Positions 9,501 through 48,689 are shown, numbered from the stretch's first letter. The stretch: DNA of 54,272 bases from an uncultured Fimbriimonadales bacterium (GCA_937992175.1 CALKLF010000003.1:1-54272), one strand, 5' to 3'. Made by a program: numbers and translations. Notes: a model not told the origin generated them from the sequence alone.

Positions 9501-9534
9501 TTTCCTCAACATTTGTCCCCTAAAAAGGGCAGTG

Positions 9535-9612
9535 AGATTCTTCGCTCCGCTCGGAATGACAACAAGTTTTCGGCGACCACGCTTTGTCATTCCGAGCGGA
9601 GCGAGGAATCTC
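9535..9612. repeat. Family B inverted pair after tnaA
   Basis: The left arm at 9535-9560 has the core TTCGCTCCGCTCGGAATGAC. The right arm at 9586-9612 is its complement with core GTCATTCCGAGCGGAGCGAG. The arms are about 26 bp with a 25-base loop. It sits 35 bases after the tnaA stop and could fold into a strong hairpin, followed by CTCTTTTTG. It may double as a terminator. Confidence 0.85.
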
Positions 9613-9718
9613 TTTTTGACGGCTTGTTGCCTTTGAGGCACTCACCCGCGAACTTATAGCCACAATAGGGTACACTAATAGAGTATGATTATGGTTCTGC
9701 GAGTCATAAAGTTGAACC

Positions 9719-27058: not shown

Positions 27059-27545
27059 GATAGTTGCCTCGCTTCAAATCTGATGTGGCATCGACATTCC
27101 TGTCCGTGCGCTCCTCGTTCCTGACAAGGGTACACAGATCTGCCTGCGTCGCACGGACAGGAATGTCCGTGCTACTTAGGTCAGGCACAGGGTCATACCC
27201 GCCCTCGGCAAAGGGGTGGCAGCGCAGAATCCGCCTCAACCCCAGCCATAGCCCCCGCAGCGCGCCGTAGCGTCGAATCGCCTCCAGCGTGTAGTGCGAG
27301 CAGGTCGGATAGTATCGACAGGTAGGCGGCGTGAGGCGCGAAAACCACTGATAGACACAGATTGCGCCGATAAGCGCACGGGCGGCGAGAGAGGGTTGAG
27401 CTTCCTCGCTGCGCTCGGAATGACAGAGGGGCTGAGGGCGAGCTTCCTCGCTGCGCTCGGAATGACAACTCTGACCTGCCTCAAAGTCCTTGTCATTCCG
27501 AGCGCAGCGAGGAAGCTCAATCGCGTTGTATACTCGTTGTCTCAT
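27027..27545 (-). CDS. yidD: Membrane protein insertion factor YidD with repeat-derived ends
   Basis: The YidD core is certain: [55 protein letters not shown]. The protein is 172 residues against about 70-90 usually. The first about 55 residues (including [13 protein letters not shown] and [12 protein letters not shown]) are translation of three family B repeats. The last about 35 (TDIPVRATQ...[10 protein letters not shown]) translate a family D repeat. The ATG at 27545 overlaps the rnpA TGA as ATGA, a classical coupling, and no ATG, GTG or TTG lies between the repeats and the core. So the extension is probably translated. The C-terminus overlaps the yidC start. Confidence 0.85.
27093..27167. 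repeat. Family D inverted repeat in the yidD 3' end
   Basis: GACATTCCTGTCCGTGCG (27093-27110) faces its complement CGCACGGACAGGAATGTC (27150-27167) across 39 bases. It is read in frame as the YidD C-terminal extension. Variants with other stem bases occur at 33020-33230 and 54162-54255. Confidence 0.75.
27398..27518. repeat. Family B repeats, three copies inside yidD
   Basis: Two direct copies, 27398-27424 and 27440-27466 (core CTTCCTCGCTGCGCTCGGAA), and one inverted copy, 27492-27518. They lie between the yidD start codon and the conserved YidD core, and translate as CHSERSEE twice and as part of [10 protein letters not shown] once. Confidence 0.85.
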
Positions 27546-32848: not shown

Positions 32849-33400
32849 TAGGTTCGCCTCCGTCTAAGTTACACGCGCGGTAAGTATACCCTCTGTTGCC
32901 CGATTCCGCGCATAAACGGACTGCTCTATGGCGTAAGCAGGAGTAGTGATTTGTCTTGAGTATAATTCCCTTGCTATGGCGTTTGGGCTAAGTCCCTCAA
33001 GTGTGAAAACATCTTGTTTTGGCGCGACGACATTCCTGTCGTCGCTTGCGGTGTGGCGCTTCAGGGAGAAGACGCTATCTGCGGTGTTGCGGATTCGGCG
33101 TGATGCCCACGATATAGCACAAACCGCACGAAGAGACAAACTTCAGAGTGCGACGACATTCCTGTCGTCGTGCTACTCCCGGATCCTTGCCTCTGGCGAC
33201 GACAGGAATGGCGACGACAAGAATGTCGCCGCACCCAGTGCGCTGCGCGCGTTTGGGGACGAACTAACCTGCGAGGTGAAAATCTACCGAAATAAGATTC
33301 CTCGCTTCGCTCGGAATGACAAGGTGTCGGCGCCAGAAAAACGCCTGTCATTCCGAGCGAAGCGAGGAATCTCTGGCTTTGGGTATGTCTAATTCGCAAA
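32849..33400. other. Gene-free repeat island
   Basis: No gene was recognised. It contains AAGTCCCTCAA at about 32991, then several palindromic GACGACATTCCTGTCGTC-type units (about 33022-33044, 33151-33172, 33197-33231), and at its right end a complete family B inverted pair. These units end only about 25 bases before the permease start. Confidence 0.7.
33295..33373. repeat. Family B inverted pair upstream of the metal permease
   Basis: Left arm 33295-33320 (core TTCCTCGCTTCGCTCGGAAT), right arm 33347-33373 its exact complement, 26-base spacer. This is the cleanest pair of the family in the window. Confidence 0.88.
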
Positions 33401-37784: not shown

Positions 37785-37862
37785 AGATACCTCCGTGTCT
37801 TAACGCGATAGAGTGCAATTCGCGATTCGACGCCGGTTTCCTGCCAAACGGCTTTGGCAAGG

Positions 37863-37868
37863 TATAAT
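37863..37868 (+). promoter_or_regulatory. -10 element TATAAT of the left tRNA-Arg
   Basis: A perfect TATAAT lies 35 bases before the tRNA 5' end. The matching -35 is weak. The second tRNA copy lacks such an element at the same distance. Confidence 0.5.
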
Positions 37869-37902
37869 TGCGCTGTATACCCTGCCTGATGGTTGACTCC
37901 GC

Positions 37903-37978
37903 GCCCCCGTAGCTCAACGGACAGAGCAGCGGCCTTCTAAGCCGTTGGTTGTGGGTTCGAGTCCCGCCGGGGGCGCCA
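37903..37978 (+). tRNA. tRNA-Arg (anticodon TCT), left copy / attL
   Basis: 76 bases including encoded CCA. Acceptor GCCCCCG pairs with CGGGGGC. D-stem GCTC/GAGC, anticodon stem GCGGC/GCCGT with loop CTTCTAA (anticodon TCT, reading AGA), 5-base variable loop, and T-arm GTGGG-TTCGAGT-CCCGC. Discriminator is G. All stems close. The integrase gene begins 71 bases downstream. Confidence 0.95.
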
Positions 37979-38048
37979 GTAGTAGGTTCAAGCCCCGCCA
38001 CACCCTCTCGGCTACTCCATATAGTGGTCTACCCTTCAGGAGAACGCG

Positions 38049-38987
38049 GTGAAAACCCATAGCCTTACCGTTGCCACCTTCGAGAACGCCCTGCAAGAGG
38101 CGTTTCAACTGTGGATGGAGAGCATGCAAGCGCGAGCCTTCTCGCCGAAAACCCTCTATGGCTACAAGGTGAATGTAGGCGCGTTTATTCGGTTCCTGAA
38201 CGCGCTGGGGCTCACCGAGCTGGAACAGGTGCAACCCACCCATATTCGCAAGTGGCTTACCTACAGGCGCGAGAAGGGCGTGAGTAATGCCCAGCTGTGG
38301 AATGACTACCGTCAACCGAGAACCTTCTGGAACTGGTGCTTGAGAGAGGAACTCACAACCCATAACCCCTTCACGAAAGTGGAGAAGCCCCGCTTGGAAA
38401 CCGTTGTGAAACCCGCCCTCACGCCCGAACAGGTAGAGGCGTTGCTGAAAGCCTGTGAGGGTAAGGATTGGCTACGCTTGAGGGACAGAGCGTTATTGCT
38501 CACACTACTGGACACAGGGCTTCGCGCCAGCGAGGTACATAGCCTCAAGGCAACCGATGAGAAACGGGACACCCTCCTGATTCGTGGCAAAGGTGGAAAA
38601 CGGCGTGTCGTGTTCCTGTGCCCCGAAACCCGCCTTGCCTTGCGCAGGTACTTGAACGCCTGCCCACACTCACTCACGGACGATTCGCCTCTTTGGTGGG
38701 GCAGGAATGGCGCACTCACGCTGTGGGGGCTGCTCGAAGTCATAGAGAACATCGGCAAGCGTGCAGGCATAACCCCCTTAGGAGCGCATATATTCCGACG
38801 CACACACGCCGTGTGGAGCCTGCGTTCAGGCATAGACCTCGCCCACCTGCAGAAAATGCTCGGACACTCCAGCATGAGCGTATTGGTGAAGCATTACCTG
38901 CCCCTGCTGGAATCGGACTTGAAGGAAGCCCATCGGCAACATAGCCCCGTGAATACCCTGCTCAACAGCAGGAGAACCCGTAAGTAG
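38049..38987 (+). CDS. Tyrosine recombinase/integrase
   Basis: 312 residues starting at GTG 38049 with AGGAG upstream. An N-terminal SAM-like core-binding domain (FSPKTLYGYKVNVGAFIRFL) precedes the catalytic domain. The catalytic set is complete: Arg159 in TGLRASEV, Lys in GKGGKRR, H-I-F-R-R (His and Arg), H in MLGHSS and the nucleophile Tyr in VKHYLP. It resembles XerC/D-type phage and plasmid integrases. Its position 71 bases from the left tRNA-Arg predicts recombination at tRNA sites and makes it the likely integrase of this element. No excisionase gene was recognised. Confidence 0.93.
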   Translation: MKTHSLTVATFENALQEAFQLWMESMQARAFSPKTLYGYKVNVGAFIRFLNALGLTELEQVQPTHIRKWLTYRREKGVSNAQLWNDYRQPRTFWNWCLREELTTHNPFTKVEKPRLETVVKPALTPEQVEALLKACEGKDWLRLRDRALLLTLLDTGLRASEVHSLKATDEKRDTLLIRGKGGKRRVVFLCPETRLALRRYLNACPHSLTDDSPLWWGRNGALTLWGLLEVIENIGKRAGITPLGAHIFRRTHAVWSLRSGIDLAHLQKMLGHSSMSVLVKHYLPLLESDLKEAHRQHSPVNTLLNSRRTRK

Positions 38988-39077
38988 CCCGAACTGTAGG
39001 GGAGCCTGCCCTCTCGCGCTGCTCGACTCCACTGTCAGTGCGAGCAGGGCAGGCTTAGAACAGTGGAGTGAAGAGCC

Positions 39078-39872
39078 GTGAATGCTCAGCAATACCTGCT
39101 ACGGGAATACCTGAGGCTGTTATGGGAAGATTCAGAGTGGCAAGCCGATTGGCAAGCCGTCAGGCAAGGCGAGATGGACTTCGCCCGCTTCGAGCAGAAG
39201 TGGAAACTGCCACGCCTGCTCAGGCGAATCCTGATTGACGCTTCGCGAGAGAGTGAGGAACCTACCCTGCAACGCCTTCAAGAGAAGATTCCTGCGGTAG
39301 AGGTTTCGGGCTATGCCATTCTCACGCCTGAAGGAACCCTGCGAGTGGAACCTGCACTGCCCGAAAAACCTTTGCAAGCCCTACCCGAAGCCGAGCCGAG
39401 CGTGGAAACCCGTGAGGCATACTTGGAGCGCGTGAAAGCAACCATGTTGCAGGAGCGCAACTTCGCAAGCCTGCTTCAGCAGATTCAGAGCCTGCCCCCT
39501 GAGAAGCGAGAAGCCTACCTGCGAGTGCTTCAGGGGCAGGAGCCACGATTGCTACCTGAAGCGCAAGCGAAGTACCCTGAACTCTCAGGGCACGAACTGG
39601 AACAGCAGGTGATTCTGCTCGCGATGCGCTACTATGAGGAATGCCTGAAAGCGATTACCCCGCGCTTGACACCAAAGAGGTTCCGAAACAGGCAACAGAA
39701 TCCCGCCTACCTCAAGCATGTGGCACTTGCAATTTACCTGCGAATCGCCAAAGGAATGCCCTATGCCGAGATTCAACTCGAACTGGCAAGGCGTGGCTAT
39801 AGGTGGCTAAGTGAACTCACCACGATTCAGAGAGAATGCGCTTATTGGGTTCAAGTCTTAGAAATCCCCTGA
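39078..39872 (+). CDS. Element-borne helical protein of unknown function (264 aa)
   Basis: Not recognised. Mostly helical and Leu/Glu/Arg-rich: MNAQQYLLREYLRLLWEDSE at the start, a proline-rich middle (about 88-108) and a compact C-terminal part with YLKHVALAIYLRIAKGMPYA followed by EIQLELARRGY. The last stretch could be a helix-turn-helix with a recognition helix near EIQLELARRGYRWLS, so a replication or regulatory role is possible but unproven. No signal peptide or membrane helix. It lies between the integrase and the replication genes. The start ATG 39078 has a weak GTGAAGAG-type upstream site. Confidence 0.7.
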   Translation: MNAQQYLLREYLRLLWEDSEWQADWQAVRQGEMDFARFEQKWKLPRLLRRILIDASRESEEPTLQRLQEKIPAVEVSGYAILTPEGTLRVEPALPEKPLQALPEAEPSVETREAYLERVKATMLQERNFASLLQQIQSLPPEKREAYLRVLQGQEPRLLPEAQAKYPELSGHELEQQVILLAMRYYEECLKAITPRLTPKRFRNRQQNPAYLKHVALAIYLRIAKGMPYAEIQLELARRGYRWLSELTTIQRECAYWVQVLEIP

Positions 39873-39893
39873 ATTTCGGGGTTATTGAAGCGT

Positions 39894-39909
39894 TTCAATA
39901 CCTAAACGA
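39894..39909. promoter_or_regulatory. Palindrome ATTGAA-GCGT-TTCAAT, possible operator
   Basis: A perfect 6-bp inverted repeat with 4-base centre, 50 bases before the small RHH-like gene. Size and position fit an autoregulatory operator for that protein. This is only an inference. Confidence 0.4.
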
Positions 39910-39958
39910 CATAAAACCGCCCCTTGCCCGTCGGGAAAATCGCTGCTGGTGATTGACG

Positions 39959-40153
39959 ATGAGCAGACTGGTGCGGATGCTTTATGACGAACCGCTGCTG
40001 CTGCGAGCGTTAGAAACTCGCGCCGCACGAAACTTTCGCAAGCCGAAACACGAACTCGTTGTGATTCTCCGATGGGTACTCGCGCCCGAACTGCGTGAAC
40101 TCGCTGCCCAACTACCTGACGAGCCTGCTGAGCGCAAGGAGGTGTCGCCGTGA
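39959..40153 (+). CDS. Small ribbon-helix-helix-like protein (64 aa)
   Basis: Short basic protein. MSRLVRMLYDEPLLLRALET-RAARNFRKPKHELVVILRWVLA reads like a ribbon-helix-helix unit: a strand, an Arg/Asn-rich turn (L-x-x-R-A-A-R-N-x-R-K), and helix V-I-L-R-x-x-L as in Arc/FitA-type proteins. On plasmids such proteins control copy number or act as antitoxins; no toxin is next to it. ATG 39959 is chosen over TTG 39953. Its TGA overlaps the GTG start of the replication gene (GTGA), so it is coupled to it. Confidence 0.6.
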   Translation: MSRLVRMLYDEPLLLRALETRAARNFRKPKHELVVILRWVLAPELRELAAQLPDEPAERKEVSP

Positions 40154-42735
40154 GAAACGGAAACCCCCGCACCCCACGCCATCAGGCGCGAGAAGCGAGG
40201 GAGCTAAGCCTGCGTGAGATTTTACCTCATTTCACTCGCAAGGAATGGCTGAGCGACGGTTCCGTGATGGTGAGCTGCCCAGTGCCCACACACGGTAGAG
40301 GGCGAGGCGACTTGCATCCATCCCTAAAACTCTCTGAAACGCCCGATGGACGCTTGATGTGGCACTGCAAAGTGGGGTGTAGTCAGGAAGCCGTCGGCGA
40401 AGCGTTGCGACGCCTTGCTGGACGCCCCTCGCGAGGCAACTCTCGCCCTGCGCCTTCACGAACCGAGCAGAATCGCCCTGAATCGCAAGATTCAGAGGAA
40501 CCCGCTGGATTGACGGTTGCCCAATACTGCCAAGCGAAGCGATTAGACCCTACCCAGCTCCAGCAGTGGCATGTGAGCGAGTGCCTGCTCAGTGGACGCC
40601 CTGCCCTGAAGATGGAATACCGCAACGAGCGTGGCGAGCCGATTGCCACTCGCTACCGCCTGAGCCTCGCAGGTGAAAACCGCTTCCGATGGGCACGGGG
40701 CAATCGCCCCATCTTGTATGGGTTATGGCGAACGCGCGAGTGGGCTGATGAGGCAGTCTACTTATGCGAAGGCGAATCGGATGTTCACTCCTGCTGGACA
40801 GCAGGGCTACCCAGTTTAGGCGTCCCTGGCGCAGGCGTGTGGGAAGCCGAATGGTGGTTCTCACTCGGAAGGTTCCAGCGCGTGGTGGTGCTACCCGACA
40901 GTGATGGCGCAGGCGAGGCGTTGGTGCAACGCCTCGCCGAAACCGCCCCGCCGATTGCGCTGGAGCGAACAGAGGTGCTTCAACTGCCCTGCAAAGATGT
41001 TTCTGAACTCTGGACACGCTTGAACGCCGACGCCGACGCCTTCAGAGCCGAGCTGGAGCAACTGCCCCGAACGCCCCTGAGCGAGTTTCGCGAAGCCGAG
41101 CAGGAACCTGAAGAGCAATACATCTTTACCCCCATCCGATGTAGCGAGATTCAACCTGAAACCCAACCCCCCATCGTGCCGAGCCTCATCTATACAGGTT
41201 CCATCACTTGGCTGGTGGGCATTTCAGGCGTCGGTAAGACCTCTCTCGCTTTAGAAATTGCCGATTGCTTGACTACAGGCGGTGGGCTGCTTTGGGGCAA
41301 GGTTCCAGTCCAGCACGCGAGACTGTTATGGCTTGACTACGACCATAGATTCCCACGCCTGAGGGAGGTGATGGACGCCTTCTATGGCGAAAAAGAGCGC
41401 GACTTGCTCATCTTGCCTGAAGAGCAACGGTATGCCCTCTCTTGGGAAACACTCCAACCCTACATCGAACTCATTCGGCGCGAGGGCATAGAACTCATCG
41501 TTAGCGACACAGGGTTCGATTGGCTGCATGTATTAGACGACGCGAAGGATGCAGAGGCGCGAGAGAAAACCCTTCTCCTGCGTGAACTTGCGGACGCCAC
41601 AGGGGTTGCTGTCGTGCTATTACACCATCCATCAAAAGCCCCTGGACGGGCAGGTTCCACGATGGGTATGAGCGGACACCATCGGTACGCTGGACGCGCC
41701 GATGTGATTGCCGAGTTAGTTCACGATGGGAGCGAGGGGCAGGATTGGGTACGGTTGCGCATACTGAAAGACCGCTACGGCGAGCGCAAAGAGTACCGCT
41801 TCGCAAGGCAGGGACGCCGATTTATTCCACTGGAACCCGCTTCCCTGCCCAAGAGCGAATGGCACATAGTGGAGCAGTACCTCGAAACGCACGGGCAAGC
41901 CAGTTATGAAGAACTGCTCGAAGCCTTGACACAGGCAGGCTACAAGATGACGCTTCACGCCGTCCAGCAAAGAATCTACCGCTACCGCAGCCGAGGGCTA
42001 ATCACCATCACGCGCGAGGGGTTCCAATCACGAGCCGTCGTGCGGTTAGCCCATGTCAACATTCTCATACCTACCGAGAATCATGAGAATCATGAGAATC
42101 TTGAGAAGGATGAGAATGTTGGAGCGGTACTTCAAGTTTCTCATGCCTCATCATACCCCCTTACAGACCATTGTGAGAATCTTGAGAAGGATGAGAATCT
42201 TGAAGCGGTACTCCAACCTTCTCAAGATTCTCAAGATTCTCAAGATTCTCAACATTCTCATGATTCTCATGATTCTCACGATGGTATGGATGTGCAATCT
42301 GTTGCTCGGATTGTTGAGTCAATAGGAGCCGAGCCTTCTCTCTCTCACGCCGAGCCTGTTCCTTCGCAACCATCCACGCTTGATGACGCGCTGGAGCTAT
42401 GGCTTCAGCAGGCTTCGCGCCCTGATGACCCGTTCAGGTTAGAGCCTGATGAGGTAGACGCTGTCCGCTTGTTGTGGCGCGTTGCGCAATCACGAGGGTT
42501 CCCACCCTTGACGCTGCCTACCTACAACTTCGTGATTGGCGAGGGGGAACAGGCGTGGCTTGAAGCCTGCCAGCAGATGGCAGGCACGCCTGCGGTTCAA
42601 CTCGCGCTGGAGCAACTCCAGCAACGCCCGAACCGTGCCACACAACCGAGCTTGTTTAATAACGATTCGGACGCGAACAGTGGCACTGCTCGCGCCAGTG
42701 ATGAAACCACACACTGCCCTACGATTCCATCGTAG
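40150..42735 (+). CDS. Replication protein: zinc-finger primase, TOPRIM and RecA-like ATPase
   Basis: 861 residues, GTG start, AGGAGGTG upstream. A CHC2-like zinc motif (C43-P-V-P-T-H48 ... C73-x3-C77, with HPSLKLS between) opens the protein. The TOPRIM region carries EGESD (207-211) and DSDGAG (250-255). A RepA/AAA_25-type ATPase follows, with Walker A GISGVGKT (357-364) and LIVSDTGFDWL as Walker B, plus VVLLHHPSKAPGRAGSTMG. About 575-630 is a winged-helix segment. Residues 643-709 are Glu-Asn-His and Ser-Gln-Asp repeats encoded by 9-bp repeat arrays. The last part is unassigned. This is a primase-helicase of the type used by phages, satellites and integrated plasmids. Confidence 0.9.
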   Translation: MRNGNPRTPRHQAREARELSLREILPHFTRKEWLSDGSVMVSCPVPTHGRGRGDLHPSLKLSETPDGRLMWHCKVGCSQEAVGEALRRLAGRPSRGNSRPAPSRTEQNRPESQDSEEPAGLTVAQYCQAKRLDPTQLQQWHVSECLLSGRPALKMEYRNERGEPIATRYRLSLAGENRFRWARGNRPILYGLWRTREWADEAVYLCEGESDVHSCWTAGLPSLGVPGAGVWEAEWWFSLGRFQRVVVLPDSDGAGEALVQRLAETAPPIALERTEVLQLPCKDVSELWTRLNADADAFRAELEQLPRTPLSEFREAEQEPEEQYIFTPIRCSEIQPETQPPIVPSLIYTGSITWLVGISGVGKTSLALEIADCLTTGGGLLWGKVPVQHARLLWLDYDHRFPRLREVMDAFYGEKERDLLILPEEQRYALSWETLQPYIELIRREGIELIVSDTGFDWLHVLDDAKDAEAREKTLLLRELADATGVAVVLLHHPSKAPGRAGSTMGMSGHHRYAGRADVIAELVHDGSEGQDWVRLRILKDRYGERKEYRFARQGRRFIPLEPASLPKSEWHIVEQYLETHGQASYEELLEALTQAGYKMTLHAVQQRIYRYRSRGLITITREGFQSRAVVRLAHVNILIPTENHENHENLEKDENVGAVLQVSHASSYPLTDHCENLEKDENLEAVLQPSQDSQDSQDSQHSHDSHDSHDGMDVQSVARIVESIGAEPSLSHAEPVPSQPSTLDDALELWLQQASRPDDPFRLEPDEVDAVRLLWRVAQSRGFPPLTLPTYNFVIGEGEQAWLEACQQMAGTPAVQLALEQLQQRPNRATQPSLFNNDSDANSGTARASDETTHCPTIPS
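42076..42120 (+). repeat. Five tandem 9-bp repeats (GAGAATCAT type)
   Basis: GAGAATCAT (42076), GAGAATCAT (42085), GAGAATCTT (42094), GAGAAGGAT (42103), GAGAATGTT (42112). They fit head to tail without gaps, and nine bases keep the reading frame of the replication gene. Iteron-like. Confidence 0.9.
42175..42277. repeat. Opposed 9-bp repeat arrays with inverted symmetry
   Basis: Three forward units (42175-42201: GAGAATCTT, GAGAAGGAT, GAGAATCTT) face seven reverse units (42215-42277: AACCTTCTC, three AAGATTCTC, AACATTCTC, two ATGATTCTC). The forward and reverse units are complementary, so the region can fold into a hairpin with a 27-bp imperfect stem. It may be a replication origin inside the replication gene. 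Confidence 0.88.
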
Positions 42736-42758
42736 CGCAATACACACAGGAGGTATGT

Positions 42759-43142
42759 ATGGAAGTTCGATTCAAGGCTACAAATTATGAGCCACTTCCC
42801 ACAGGCGAGTACCCCGCCACCTTGCAGAATGTGGAGGTGAGCGAAGGGCAGTACGGTTCACAGGTGCGCCTCACCTTCGCGTTGGACGGGCAATATGCAG
42901 GCAGGAAACTCACTGCCTATGCCCGCCTCAGTGAGAGCCTGTCAGGGAAACTCGCCAAGTGGACACAATCCATACTCGCACGCCCCATTCGCGAAGGCGA
43001 AACCGTAGACCTGAACGCGCTAATCGGCAAGCCCTGCACACTTGTAGTGATTCGCGCCACGAAACCCGATGGTGCAGGGTTCAATCGGGTAGAGAATGTT
43101 TTGCCCGCCCCACCCCCTGAAGCCCTGTTCACGGAGCCATAA
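42759..43142 (+). CDS. Phage-type DUF669-like protein
   Basis: 127 residues, preceded by AGGAGGTATGT. The layout VRFKATNYEPLPTGEYPATL, EVSEGQYGSQVRLTFALDGQ, YAGRKLTAYARLSESLSGKL, TLIGKPC-type ALIGKPCTLVV, GFNRVENVLP matches small phage and plasmid proteins of the DUF669 type, which are suspected single-strand DNA-binding or replication accessory proteins. No catalytic residues are expected. Its place after the primase-helicase gene fits a replication module. Confidence 0.7.
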   Translation: MEVRFKATNYEPLPTGEYPATLQNVEVSEGQYGSQVRLTFALDGQYAGRKLTAYARLSESLSGKLAKWTQSILARPIREGETVDLNALIGKPCTLVVIRATKPDGAGFNRVENVLPAPPPEALFTEP

Positions 43143-43217
43143 CCTACAGGCAGGCAGGGTAGCCCTCATCACCTCCCCACGCTACCCCGCCTGCCCATTC
43201 ACGATGGAGGTGAATTT

Positions 43218-43565
43218 ATGCAGGGAATTTACCCGAAGTTAGCGGTGCGCTTACCCGACGGACGCTTAGTAGGTTCCATCGAGCAAGGCGTTTTCTACCG
43301 TTCCTTTCGTGGGAGCCTTCACCTGCTCCAACGCCCTGTACCCGCACTCGCGATTGACACGCGAGTTTATGACGCCTACCGCCCCTACTTTCACGAACTC
43401 AGGTGGACGGACACTGAAACAGGGCGCGTCTACATCCTCTCTGCTCCACGCTTCGACGCCCTGCGCTGGACGCTGGAGCGCGGTTATGGTAGGCAGTACG
43501 CTGTTGCCCTGCGGTATTGGCACTGCGTAGACCCGAAGCAGTCCCAACTCGCGCTTGCCCTGTAA
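43218..43565 (+). CDS. Element-borne protein of unknown function (115 aa)
   Basis: Not recognised. TGGAGGTGAA gives a strong ribosome site for ATG 43218. The chain is beta-rich and aromatic: IYPKLAVRLPDGRLVGSIEQ-GVFYRSFRG, ALAIDTRVYDAYRPYFHELR, RVYILSAPRFDALRWTLERG-YGRQYAVALRYWHC. Two mirrored pieces (D-x-x-V and V-Y-x-L) suggest a small two-domain or SH3-like fold, but no claim is made. No signal peptide. Last gene of the element before the gene-free right end. Confidence 0.68.
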   Translation: MQGIYPKLAVRLPDGRLVGSIEQGVFYRSFRGSLHLLQRPVPALAIDTRVYDAYRPYFHELRWTDTETGRVYILSAPRFDALRWTLERGYGRQYAVALRYWHCVDPKQSQLALAL

Positions 43566-44078
43566 ACGCCTCTGAGAGCCTCTTTCGTGTAGGGGGGTAC
43601 TTTCCACTACCCCCTGCGGTTAGACGCCCCTCAGAGGCGAAACTTAGGAATAAAACCGCGAAAGCGTGCATCGCGTGCAAAGCGTGTAAATGCGCGAGTA
43701 TGACGGCAATCAAGCCTCTGTGAAGTCCAGCGGATGGCGCGAAAAAACTAACGATTCGCCTCTGAATCGCCCTGAATCGGCAGGAATCGCGCGGTATGCC
43801 ACGAACAAAGAAACGCCTACCTGTTCTCGGCAGGTAGGCGAGTGGTGCTACCGCAGGTGCGGTCTACGGTAGCGAGCGAGAGATTCACCGTCCCTCGCGA
43901 AACTCCTGCAAGCCCCCTGCGAAGCCCCTCTGGAAAAATCGGGTTTCTCTGTTTCACCTGTGAAAAACAGAGGTTGGGTAGACCCATGGCCTTGCGAGGG
44001 TTTCTATGCGGTGGGTTTCACGAAACCACCATCGGTTGTAGACAACTCAGGTGGCGTCTACAGCGTATGGTGTCCCGC
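43566..44078. other. Gene-free right end of the element with hairpins
   Basis: No gene was recognised. Perfect inverted repeats include CGCCTACCTG/CAGGTAGGCG (43814-43823 and 43831-43840, 7-base loop) and TGTAGAC/GTCTACA (44037-44043 and 44056-44062), next to the right tRNA copy. GCTACCG/CGGTAGC lies at about 43847-43873 and CTCTGTTT/AAACAGAG near 43948-43973. Such a stretch could hold integrase arm sites, a terminator or an origin. Which one cannot be told. Confidence 0.6.
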
Positions 44079-44154
44079 GCCCCCGTAGCTCAACGGACAG
44101 AGCAGCGGCCTTCTAAGCCGTTGGTTGTGGGTTCGAGTCCCGTCGGGGGCGCCA
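44079..44154 (+). tRNA. tRNA-Arg (anticodon TCT), right copy / attR
   Basis: Same 76-base gene as at 37903 with one change: T-stem 3' base C to T (CCCGT instead of CCCGC), giving a G-T pair. Anticodon TCT, encoded CCA and all other stems are unchanged. It may be functional. The identical part extends a few bases upstream of the tRNA (CCGC). Confidence 0.93.
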
Positions 44155-44162
44155 CGCGCGCT

Positions 44163-45182
44163 CTATCCCATCACCAGCAACCGCTTGCCCGCCGTCATCG
44201 ACGCCTGATAGTCCGCGAGGGCGCGATGCACTTCACTCAGCGGATACCGTTCTGCAATCTCGGTGTGCAGCAGGTCGCCCAGCGCACGCTGAACCTGCCT
44301 GCCCAAACGCAGCTGCCCCCACACGCTGCGCTCCGCCAGCCAATCTGCAAGCCAGAAGCCCTCAATCTGTTTCTGCTCGAAAATCAGGTCGCGCGGGTCT
44401 GCCATGAGCGGCGATTCGGAGAGCGCGCCATAGAGGATCAACCGACTGCCCTCAGGCATCGCCTTTAGCACCCGTGCCGCGAGCATTCCCGAAACCGCTT
44501 CAAATGCGATTCGGGCGTCCAGCGTGTGGCAGATTTCGCGGAGCTGCGCGTCAAAATCGGGCGTTTCGCTGTTCAGCACATACCGCGTGCCCATCGAGCG
44601 CAGCAACTCCGCCTGTTCCTCGCGCCGCACGATGTGGACGCCCTCCACACCGAAGCGCTGGCTCAGGCGTACCAGCATCCGCCCCACGGCGCTGGCGGCG
44701 GCGGTCTGCACGAAGGCGCGCGCGCCGTCCTTGCGAACGATGTCCATCAGCGCCCACGCCGTGAGCGGGTTCACGATGAGCGTCGCGCCCTGCTCGTCGC
44801 TCACGGAGTCGAGGAGCGGGACGCAGCGCGTAGCGGAGGTGAGCATATACTCCGCCCAGGTGCCGTCATGCTGGTTGGGCGCGGCGCACGCCACGCGCTT
44901 GCCCAGCAGCTGACGGCTGAGCCAGTCGTCGCCGGTCGCCACGATGCGCCCTATGCCCTCCCAGCCCGGCACAACGGGCAGCGGCTTCAATACACCGTAC
45001 AGCCCCTTCAAGAACATCAGGTCGGACGGGTTGATAGGCGCAGCGCGCATTTTCACCAACACCTGCCCGCGCTCAGGCTTGGGCACGGTGCGCGTCTCGA
45101 TGCGCAGCGAGTCGGGCGCGCCGTCGTAGGCGTGCAGCACCGCCGCCTGCATCGTGTCCGGAATCGGTTCAATCGCTCTCAT
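44163..45182 (-). CDS. MDR-family NADPH-dependent oxidoreductase (quinone/enoyl reductase type)
   Basis: 339 residues. MQAAVLHAYDGAPDSLRIET, INPSDLMFLKGLYG, LPVVPGWEGIGRIVATGDDW and PLTAWALMDIV mark the zinc-free medium-chain dehydrogenase/reductase group (the zinc-ligand GHE is replaced by G-W-E-G). The central VQTAAASAVGRMLVRLSQRFGVEGVHIVRR is the Rossmann dinucleotide site. It resembles mitochondrial-type enoyl reductases and quinone reductases. ATG 45182 overlaps the SDR stop as ATGA, so the two reductases are coupled. Substrate unknown. Confidence 0.85.
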   Translation of the reverse strand: MRAIEPIPDTMQAAVLHAYDGAPDSLRIETRTVPKPERGQVLVKMRAAPINPSDLMFLKGLYGVLKPLPVVPGWEGIGRIVATGDDWLSRQLLGKRVACAAPNQHDGTWAEYMLTSATRCVPLLDSVSDEQGATLIVNPLTAWALMDIVRKDGARAFVQTAAASAVGRMLVRLSQRFGVEGVHIVRREEQAELLRSMGTRYVLNSETPDFDAQLREICHTLDARIAFEAVSGMLAARVLKAMPEGSRLILYGALSESPLMADPRDLIFEQKQIEGFWLADWLAERSVWGQLRLGRQVQRALGDLLHTEIAERYPLSEVHRALADYQASMTAGKRLLVMG

Positions 45183-47531: not shown

Positions 47532-48689
47532 ATGGCGCGAAGATACGGTTGGGCACGGGGCAGGTATGAGATTCCTCGCTGCGCTCGGAATGACGGTGTA
47601 GCGGGCGCAGATTTGTCATTCCGAGCGCAGCGAGGAATCTGGGCATTAGTTGCCTGCGCACTGCTGAGTGCAAGCCTTGCGAAGGCGCAGGAGCTGGAGC
47701 CGTACCTCAAGACCCGCGCGGCGCATAAAATCAAAAGCGCGACGCCGATTGCCGCGCTGGAGCTTGCCGTCGGCAAGCGCGTGCTGGAAGTGGAAGGCGT
47801 CGTGGTCGGCTCGGTAGCCGTCGGCGAGGCGCAGTCGGTGCTGATGGAGATCGAGCCAGGGCGCAGCATCGTTGTGGCGATTGGCGCAGGGCACGGCTGG
47901 CTCACGCGCGGGCAGGTGCGCATTCGCGCGATTGTGGAGGTGCAGCGTGAAAGCGAGTTAGTCACCCCCACCTATCGCCTGATTAGCGCGACATTCGCCA
48001 GTATGGTCGCGAAGTGGGAAACGCAACAACGCGCCTTGCAGCAGGCAAAGGCGCAGGCGCAAGCCAGAACGCCGAAGCCCCCCGAAACGCGCCCCCCATC
48101 GCGCGGCGCAGAGCTGAACAGTCGCGCCAGCACAAACGCCGCGCGCGCCGCCCAGCGTCCCAACCCTGCGCCCGACTGGGACACCTTCCGCGCCACGCTC
48201 CACCTCTATCAGCCTGAATATGCGCGATTCATCCGCAGTTGCAACCCACGCCTCTCGCAGCAGCAAGCTGACCAGATAGCGTGGGCGATTCTGCGCTTCA
48301 GTGCGCACTACGGCGTCGACCCGCGTTTCATCGTGGCGATTGTGCTGGTCGAATCAGGCTTCAACCCCGACGCCACCTCGCGCAAAGGCGCGGCGGGACT
48401 GGGACAACTCATGCCCGGCACCGCACGCGGACTGGGCGTGGTCGACCCCTACGACCCTATCCAGAACCTGCATGGCACGGTGAAGCTTGTGCGCGGGCAC
48501 TTAGAAAAATACTGGGCACAGACGGGCGACCCGAACGGCTGGGACCATGTAATCCTCGCGCTGGCGGCGTACAACGCAGGTTCGGGCGCAGTGCGCAAAC
48601 ACGGCGGCGTGCCCCCTTACCGCGAAACCCAGAACTATGTGCGCAAAGTCATCCGAGTCTATAAGCAGCTCTGCGGAATCCGTGAATGA
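47532..48689 (+). CDS. Lytic murein transglycosylase (SLT domain), repeat-extended N-terminus
   Basis: 385 residues. The SLT domain (about 255-380) has IVLVESGFNPDATSRKGAAG (catalytic Glu in ESGF), LGQLMPGTARGLGVVDPYDP, IQNLHGTVKLVRGHLEKYW and ALAAYNAGSGAV. It cleaves peptidoglycan in the periplasm. A beta-rich region (about 55-150) and an Ala/Pro/Arg linker precede it. The N-terminus EIPRCARNDGVAGADLSFRA is the translation of a family B repeat pair (47568-47640). The signal peptide core (ALVACALLSASLAKA) follows that repeat. rimI overlaps its end. Confidence 0.85.
   Translation: MARRYGWARGRYEIPRCARNDGVAGADLSFRAQRGIWALVACALLSASLAKAQELEPYLKTRAAHKIKSATPIAALELAVGKRVLEVEGVVVGSVAVGEAQSVLMEIEPGRSIVVAIGAGHGWLTRGQVRIRAIVEVQRESELVTPTYRLISATFASMVAKWETQQRALQQAKAQAQARTPKPPETRPPSRGAELNSRASTNAARAAQRPNPAPDWDTFRATLHLYQPEYARFIRSCNPRLSQQQADQIAWAILRFSAHYGVDPRFIVAIVLVESGFNPDATSRKGAAGLGQLMPGTARGLGVVDPYDPIQNLHGTVKLVRGHLEKYWAQTGDPNGWDHVILALAAYNAGSGAVRKHGGVPPYRETQNYVRKVIRVYKQLCGIRE
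47568..47640. repeat. Family B inverted pair inside the transglycosylase gene
   Basis: Left arm 47568-47594 (core TTCCTCGCTGCGCTCGGAAT), right arm 47615-47640 its complement, 20-base spacer. Translated in frame in both arms, upstream of the signal peptide. Confidence 0.88.

Follow-up and report, generated by a model that had tools for sequence, protein, structure and literature searches.

A 6.2-kb unit between two tRNA-Arg(TCT) genes is probably a minimal member of a phage-satellite-like family of Armatimonadota

In a 54,272-nucleotide stretch of DNA from an uncultured Fimbriimonadales bacterium (GCA_937992175.1 CALKLF010000003.1:1-54272; hereafter the window), an integrase and a replication module lie between two tRNA-Arg(TCT) genes that both appear complete. 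What kind of unit is this, and what does a whole tRNA gene at each end say about how it integrates? The 6.2-kb unit is probably an integrated, minimal member, lacking terS, of a phage-satellite-like family of Armatimonadota. That it is a real integrative element, a variant of the tRNA-integrating phage satellites, is well supported at the level of the family. The window itself is one contig of a fragmented 2.8-Mb metagenome-assembled genome (MAG) of this phylum, with 3.75% contamination.

Two tRNA genes were found in the window by ARAGORN, both tRNA-Arg(TCT) on the + strand and no others, with RF00005 bit scores of 70.2 and 68.3 (Rfam). Each lies at one end of the unit within a direct repeat that we take as the attachment (att) repeat, bounded by the CCA at one side and reaching 4 nt upstream of the tRNA at the other.

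37841-37868, + strand: promoter-like site of the left tRNA, CTGCCA-16-TATAAT, good sigma-70-like
37899-37978, + strand: left att repeat, 80 nt
37903-37978, + strand: left tRNA-Arg(TCT), with native promoter (ARAGORN, RF00005)
44075-44154, + strand: right att repeat, 80 nt
44079-44154, + strand: right, displaced full-length tRNA-Arg(TCT) (ARAGORN, RF00005)

The repeats are identical at 79 of 80 positions, differing only in the T-stem, at tRNA position 65, where the left copy has C (37967) and the right copy T (44143), which bears out a preliminary description of two complete genes with one T-stem difference. From tRNA start to tRNA start the unit measures 6,176 bp, with a GC content of 56.8% compared with 60.9% outside it. 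The two copies are not equivalent, as the left has a promoter-like site whereas none was recognisable upstream of the right. The duplication is not a chance one, because each congener having a near match has a single tRNA-Arg(TCT) and the window's genome has three. Comparison with relatives identified the C of the left copy as the relatives' base, so the T in the right copy most plausibly arose later. We considered the mismatch as a marker of the crossover and rejected it as uninformative.

Between the tRNA copies are six reading frames, all on the + strand, in agreement with the earlier account of an integrase and a replication module on one strand, followed by a conserved non-coding module.

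38049-38987, + strand: tyrosine recombinase (integrase), 312 amino acids (PF00589, 2.9e-24)
39078-39872, + strand: unknown protein, 264 amino acids, of a family common to five elements (profile searches)
39953-40153, + strand: unknown protein, 66 amino acids, immediately 5' of the primase, common to six elements
40150-42735, + strand: phage-type primase-helicase, 861 amino acids (PF13481, PF13155; phrog_239, 1.6e-35)
42759-43142, + strand: DUF669/single-strand-binding (SSB)-like protein, 127 amino acids (weak matches)
43218-43565, + strand: unknown protein, 115 amino acids, common to six elements
43780-43919, strand not given: conserved structured non-coding module, starting GCAGGAATC (9-mer and compensatory changes)

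All catalytic residues of the integrase (R159, K181, H247, R250, H273 and Y283) are present in an alignment. The primase-helicase comprises a zinc motif, Toprim_2, AAA_25 and a low-complexity linker encoded by 9-nt repeats (window ~42067-42277), and searches of the PDB for relatives of the primase and of the terminase small subunit (TerS) of related elements found none. The linker repeats encode ENHENHENLEKDEN..., followed by SQDSQDSQ..., and the two halves are mutually inverted repeats. The DUF669/SSB-like protein scored 0.003 against PF05037 (below the cut-off), 0.0019 against the SSB family phrog_378 and 3e-6 against the phage replication protein NF046043 (below the cut-off). The predicted fold of the 264-residue protein (pLDDT 60.7) was too poor for a structure search. 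Neither Pfam nor PHROGs revealed phage structural or lytic genes in the window copy, and the gene content of its siblings likewise includes none.

The replication protein bears directly on what sort of unit this is, as it matched 35 phage records and one plasmid record among public entries. A small integrative plasmid, combining an integrase with a replicon and spreading without a helper by uptake or by the mobilisation machinery of others, would fit the window copy in that it lacks terS and encodes only integrase, replication and unknown proteins, and would also fit the methylases or restriction-modification-like genes of some siblings. We nevertheless consider it unlikely given the phage bias of the replication protein, the presence of TerS in about half of the family and the lack of any relaxase or partition gene among the genes seen. 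The earlier suggestion of an undescribed small integrative plasmid or satellite family thus holds in its second half, as a satellite-like family with no name in the literature searched, a partial search that found no description of it, and the plasmid half is less favoured.

Searches of other genomes for the integrase and replication gene, as previously proposed, did find relatives, at many tRNA genes besides Arg(TCT). Integrase, primase and TerS searches located whole or partial relatives on six further contigs of the window's genome (C8, C45, C56, C73, C84 and C93), five family elements reside in one closed, one-contig chromosome of the same genus, and more occur in the genus and in the family, to which the public genome 'Armatimonadetes bacterium DC' belongs. 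A 5.6-kb relative at tRNA-Gly(CCC) was found in another family, f19, and the primase was detected in 10 of 291 Armatimonadota genomes at a strict threshold. Collectively, the targets are Leu, Thr, Gln, Lys, Ala, Arg, Val and Gly tRNA genes, spanning ten isoacceptors and duplicated as whole or partial copies, and complete siblings measure 5.6-12.3 kb. A 3.2-kb contig with primase and DUF669 genes (L033) showed no terminal overlap indicating a circle.

Profiles built from the element set revealed a common gene order: integrase, the 264-residue family or similar, a small protein, primase-helicase, DUF669, the 115-residue family, a VRR-NUC nuclease and TerS. VRR-NUC is encoded by six elements and TerS by 7 of 14; each of the six TerS sequences aligned matches terminase small subunit PHROGs (best 6.5e-16), and the one member tested against PF20901 scores above its Pfam cut-off. 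The statement that packaging genes are lacking therefore holds for the window copy and fails for the family, in which no capsid or conjugation genes were seen. A TerS search of IMG/VR also gave matches. Larger siblings carry DNA-methylase- and restriction-modification-like cargo (L043:11617-16810 and L041:2973-4745). In two siblings a large serine recombinase adjoins tRNA-Ala(CGC) (contigs C56 and C93; L046:6436-8241 and L143:1282-2829), so the integration module has probably been exchanged there; serine integrases at tRNA genes have been described as rare (PMC3218068). The left flank of the Gln(TTG) element (L043:4745-4974) shares 88% identity with the end of the Gln(CTG) element in L041 that lies on its integrase side, and may be a remnant of a second, tandem element.

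Could the interval instead be an ordinary tRNA duplication with core genes between the copies, or an assembly artefact? The host MAG is fragmented and gene order near tRNA genes is fluid within the genus, as either would have it. However, relatives are single-copy, the genes between the window tRNAs are those of mobile elements, and the same architecture recurs five times in a one-contig chromosome; because sibling elements exist, we regard this explanation as refuted to within the slightest residual chance. For the Leu element of the closed genome, G008 offers a clean empty site, where a single tRNA-Leu and nothing else separates the flanks (left, 1.6 kb including the tRNA, at 84%; right, 1.45 kb at 81%), and the series tRNA-Val-Asp-Phe-Leu-Gly, continuous in G001, G004, G006 and G007, is interrupted by an element in the window's genome. 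The preliminary description had named tandem tRNA-Arg(TCT) genes in relatives lacking the insert, or core genes inside it, as observations that would tell against an element. Relatives have one copy, and the SNF-tRNA-Arg(TCT) junction occurs without an insert in two congeners, G004 and G006; an empty site of the window copy itself was not among the loci recovered. Short stretches, GTAGTAG and CACTACCGATTGCG, follow the unoccupied tRNA-Arg(TCT) loci of G008, G010 and G001 (L084:7065-7170, L087:7515-7620 and L088:6523-6620); they resemble integrase-side element ends and are possible scars of former insertions.

Uniformity among siblings also addresses whether the unit is a decayed prophage that has retained its left, early region. 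An integrase, primase-helicase, DUF669, VRR-NUC and TerS are typical of the early and packaging-start regions of temperate phages, as such a remnant would require. Against this, about a dozen elements share the same short gene set, exact tRNA boundaries and intact long reading frames, together with the same distal non-coding module, located 288-381 nt from the far tRNA end wherever an element of the genus or family is complete, as in the window. Independent decay would not yield such uniform elements, making this origin very improbable. The 9-mer of the module is found at the corresponding place in 14 elements, and its outer helix (GCAGGA/TCCTGC) and inner hairpins show compensatory changes in 8 of 21 predicted pairs, with a folding z of -4.6 for window 43770-44078. 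The obvious guess is that it is a candidate origin or packaging site. A comparison of k-mers shared near both element ends gave no clear arm-type site.

The favoured reading, an integrated phage-satellite-like element, rests on this anatomy: an integrase, its own replication genes, terS without capsid genes, and fixed ends. The tyrosine integrase would act on an attP holding tRNA-Arg(TCT) sequence and on the tRNA gene of the chromosome, with strand exchange most likely inside the anticodon loop. The left tRNA would then combine the chromosomal promoter and 5' half with an element-derived 3' half and stay functional, and the right tRNA, with an element-derived 5' half, would be left without a recognisable promoter. 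Once excised, the circle would replicate through its primase-helicase and SSB-like protein, with the structured site close to its right end probably also involved. TerS-encoding siblings would be packaged by a helper phage; this is least certain for the window copy, which would depend on the terminase of the helper itself or may have lost some of its mobility. Among the genomes searched in the order, 17 of 18 have a terminase large subunit gene (phrog_2 hits), which in the window's genome lies at L290:8264-11925 (contig C80) near a Mu-like gpT major head gene, with others at L291 and L292. This is possibly a conserved phage-derived or gene-transfer-agent-like locus, and conceivably a helper.

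Several observations weigh against the satellite reading. The MAG is fragmented and contaminated, as given above. No remnants of TerS or VRR-NUC were found in the window copy even at E = 10, no master regulator (stl/rpr or alpA/merR) was recognised there by Pfam, PHROGs or NCBIfam, with two small unknown proteins remaining, and an integrase alignment search of IMG/VR returned no relative. No helper phage was identified. Furthermore, the empty site of the window copy with both of its flanks was sought in relatives and not found, because the right flank is rearranged: in G004 and G006 a GH127-like gene, not the ADH gene, follows SNF-tRNA-Arg(TCT), and ADH in relatives is preceded by tRNA-Arg(TCG), tRNA-Arg(CCG) or no tRNA.

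How, then, does the unit come to have a full tRNA at both ends, when siblings carry partial copies of 47, 54, 65, 66 and 69 nt? Those lengths show that the complete second copy is not a family-wide trait. Repeats cover the 3' part of the tRNA at Thr(CGT) (positions 30-76), Thr(TGT) (10-76), Leu (13 to the end), Arg(TCG) (54 nt) and Val (65 nt); the whole tRNA in the window, Ala and Arg(CCG) elements, and at Lys the whole tRNA plus ~90 nt; and the 5' side at Gln (about -20 to 68) and Gly (-9 to 50). As judged from these repeats, the full tRNA copy in the window is the wide end of a range of repeat lengths. In the Arg(CCG) element the copies diverge around positions 44-46; there the right copy has the native allele, known from G008 and G010, which places the crossover 5' of these positions. 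Intersecting this allele with the Thr (30-76) and Gly (-9 to 50) repeats confines the family crossover to tRNA positions 30-43, the anticodon loop with its 3' stem, and not, as was suggested, to the 5' side. For the window copy we infer the position from the family.

37934-37940, + strand: anticodon loop of the left copy, predicted crossover (overlap) region (sibling att repeats)

Sites of this class are already known: anticodon-centred islands account for 2,083 of 3,919 in the Islander set (PMC4383910). In most elements the left tRNA retains its chromosomal promoter and owes its 3' half to the insertion; the Gly element and both Gln elements instead supply the 5' part, for Gln with the promoter included, and the acceptor is broken in the left Gln copies. 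Where the second copy is complete, as in the window, Ala, Arg(CCG) and Lys elements, it lacks a recognisable promoter and is therefore more likely a long att repeat than a functional extra gene. The notion that the element brings its own tRNA gene is thus right for the sequence and probably wrong for expression.

Orientation relative to the integrase varies. Thr(TGT) elements occur in both forms: the integrase follows the 3' side of a tRNA copy in L048 and L148, as it does in the window, Ala, Arg(CCG), Gln(TTG) and Val elements, and abuts the 5' side in L044, as it does in the Leu, Lys, Thr(CGT), Gln(CTG) and Arg(TCG) elements. As 9 of 13 inner branches of the integrase tree are open, only sister pairs were used from it. 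L044 and L148 share a target and have integrases 85.5% identical, with the tRNA inverted relative to the integrase (98.5% match, minus strand), and the Gln pair (79.5% identical integrases) also differs in tRNA orientation. Two satellites in the window's genome seem to have exchanged ends (REARRANGEMENTS; L045:4845-11900 and L047:7100-11955, contigs C84 and C8). One runs tRNA-Val, integrase to distal end, tRNA-Arg(TCG)-Pro; the other begins with a GH127-like gene and an Arg(TCG) 3' fragment before its integrase, and ends distally with a Val fragment and tRNA-Asp. Each element thus borders one half of the site that the other occupies, and these MAG contigs are most simply explained by a reciprocal exchange between two satellites, which would have rearranged the chromosome. 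To the right of the window unit, the Arg isoacceptor neighbouring ADH changes between species, from tRNA-Arg(TCT) here to tRNA-Arg(TCG) or tRNA-Arg(CCG) in congeners (44079-45182; relatives L094, L095, L097, L098 and L099).

More tentatively, these integrases may acquire new targets when an entire tRNA gene is captured into attP, facing either way, after which the half unneeded for repair would erode towards the crossover. The range from full tRNA to 47-nt fragment would then be an age series in which full-copy elements such as the window unit are recent switchers, and recombination among related elements in different tRNA genes of one chromosome would shuffle its arms.

Comparison with known systems places the family near, and outside, several of them. 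Like phage-inducible chromosomal islands (PICIs), including the Staphylococcus aureus pathogenicity islands (PMC6092414), it has an integrase at one end, its own primase-type replicon, terS in part of the family, site-specific integration and no structural genes seen; the integrase and replication module occupy conserved positions, as PICIs require, and phage structural and lytic genes are absent as described above. In contrast, PICIs are about 12-15 kb, compared with 6.2 kb for the window unit and 5.6-12.3 kb for complete siblings, and the family has no recognisable stl/alpA-type regulator, genes all on one strand in the window copy and many tRNA targets. The minimalist PICMI satellites of Vibrionaceae (PMC10803314) are also very small, with an integrase and primase core and no capsid remodelling genes, but lie next to fis and encode AlpA, whereas the elements described here sit in tRNA genes, gave no alpA hit and encode TerS in several siblings. 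Tycheposons of Prochlorococcus, as described in PMC10872708 and PMC10803314, share a tyrosine recombinase, tRNA targets, some satellites and a link to chromosome rearrangement, and reach 200 kb, against 5.6-12.3 kb here.

The tRNA islands with anticodon-loop att sites (Islander, PMC4383910; review, PMC8371274) share the anticodon-centred crossover and mostly restore the 3' half; islands that leave a 5' fragment are rare among them (159 of 3,919; PMC4383910). Here, however, the second copy can be a complete tRNA gene, and one integrase family includes 3'- and 5'-restoring members and both tRNA orientations. An integrase between a tRNA gene and a same-orientation fragment, the Islander arrangement, is seen directly in the Leu and Thr siblings and with the Arg(TCG) and Val fragments, but the window has a full second tRNA; as Islander rejects hits inside full-length tRNA genes (its tDNA filter, PMC4383910), window-type elements are excluded. 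Unlike pTN3-like archaeal integrases (PMC8371274), the hosts here are bacterial, the integrase is different and most members restore the 3' half.

Elsewhere in the window, an ~80-nt repeat with matches on both strands recurs at about 9534-9613, 27440-27519, 33292-33373 and 47566-47640, and on other contigs of the genus; it looks like a small palindromic repeat family.

A poorly studied phylum thus gains a satellite-like family with a natural series of att sites, in which one integrase family uses ten isoacceptors, both orientations and both restored halves. This series makes testable how tRNA integrases change target. Elements that duplicate a full tRNA may also be more numerous than current counts suggest, as the design of a widely used island finder leaves them out.

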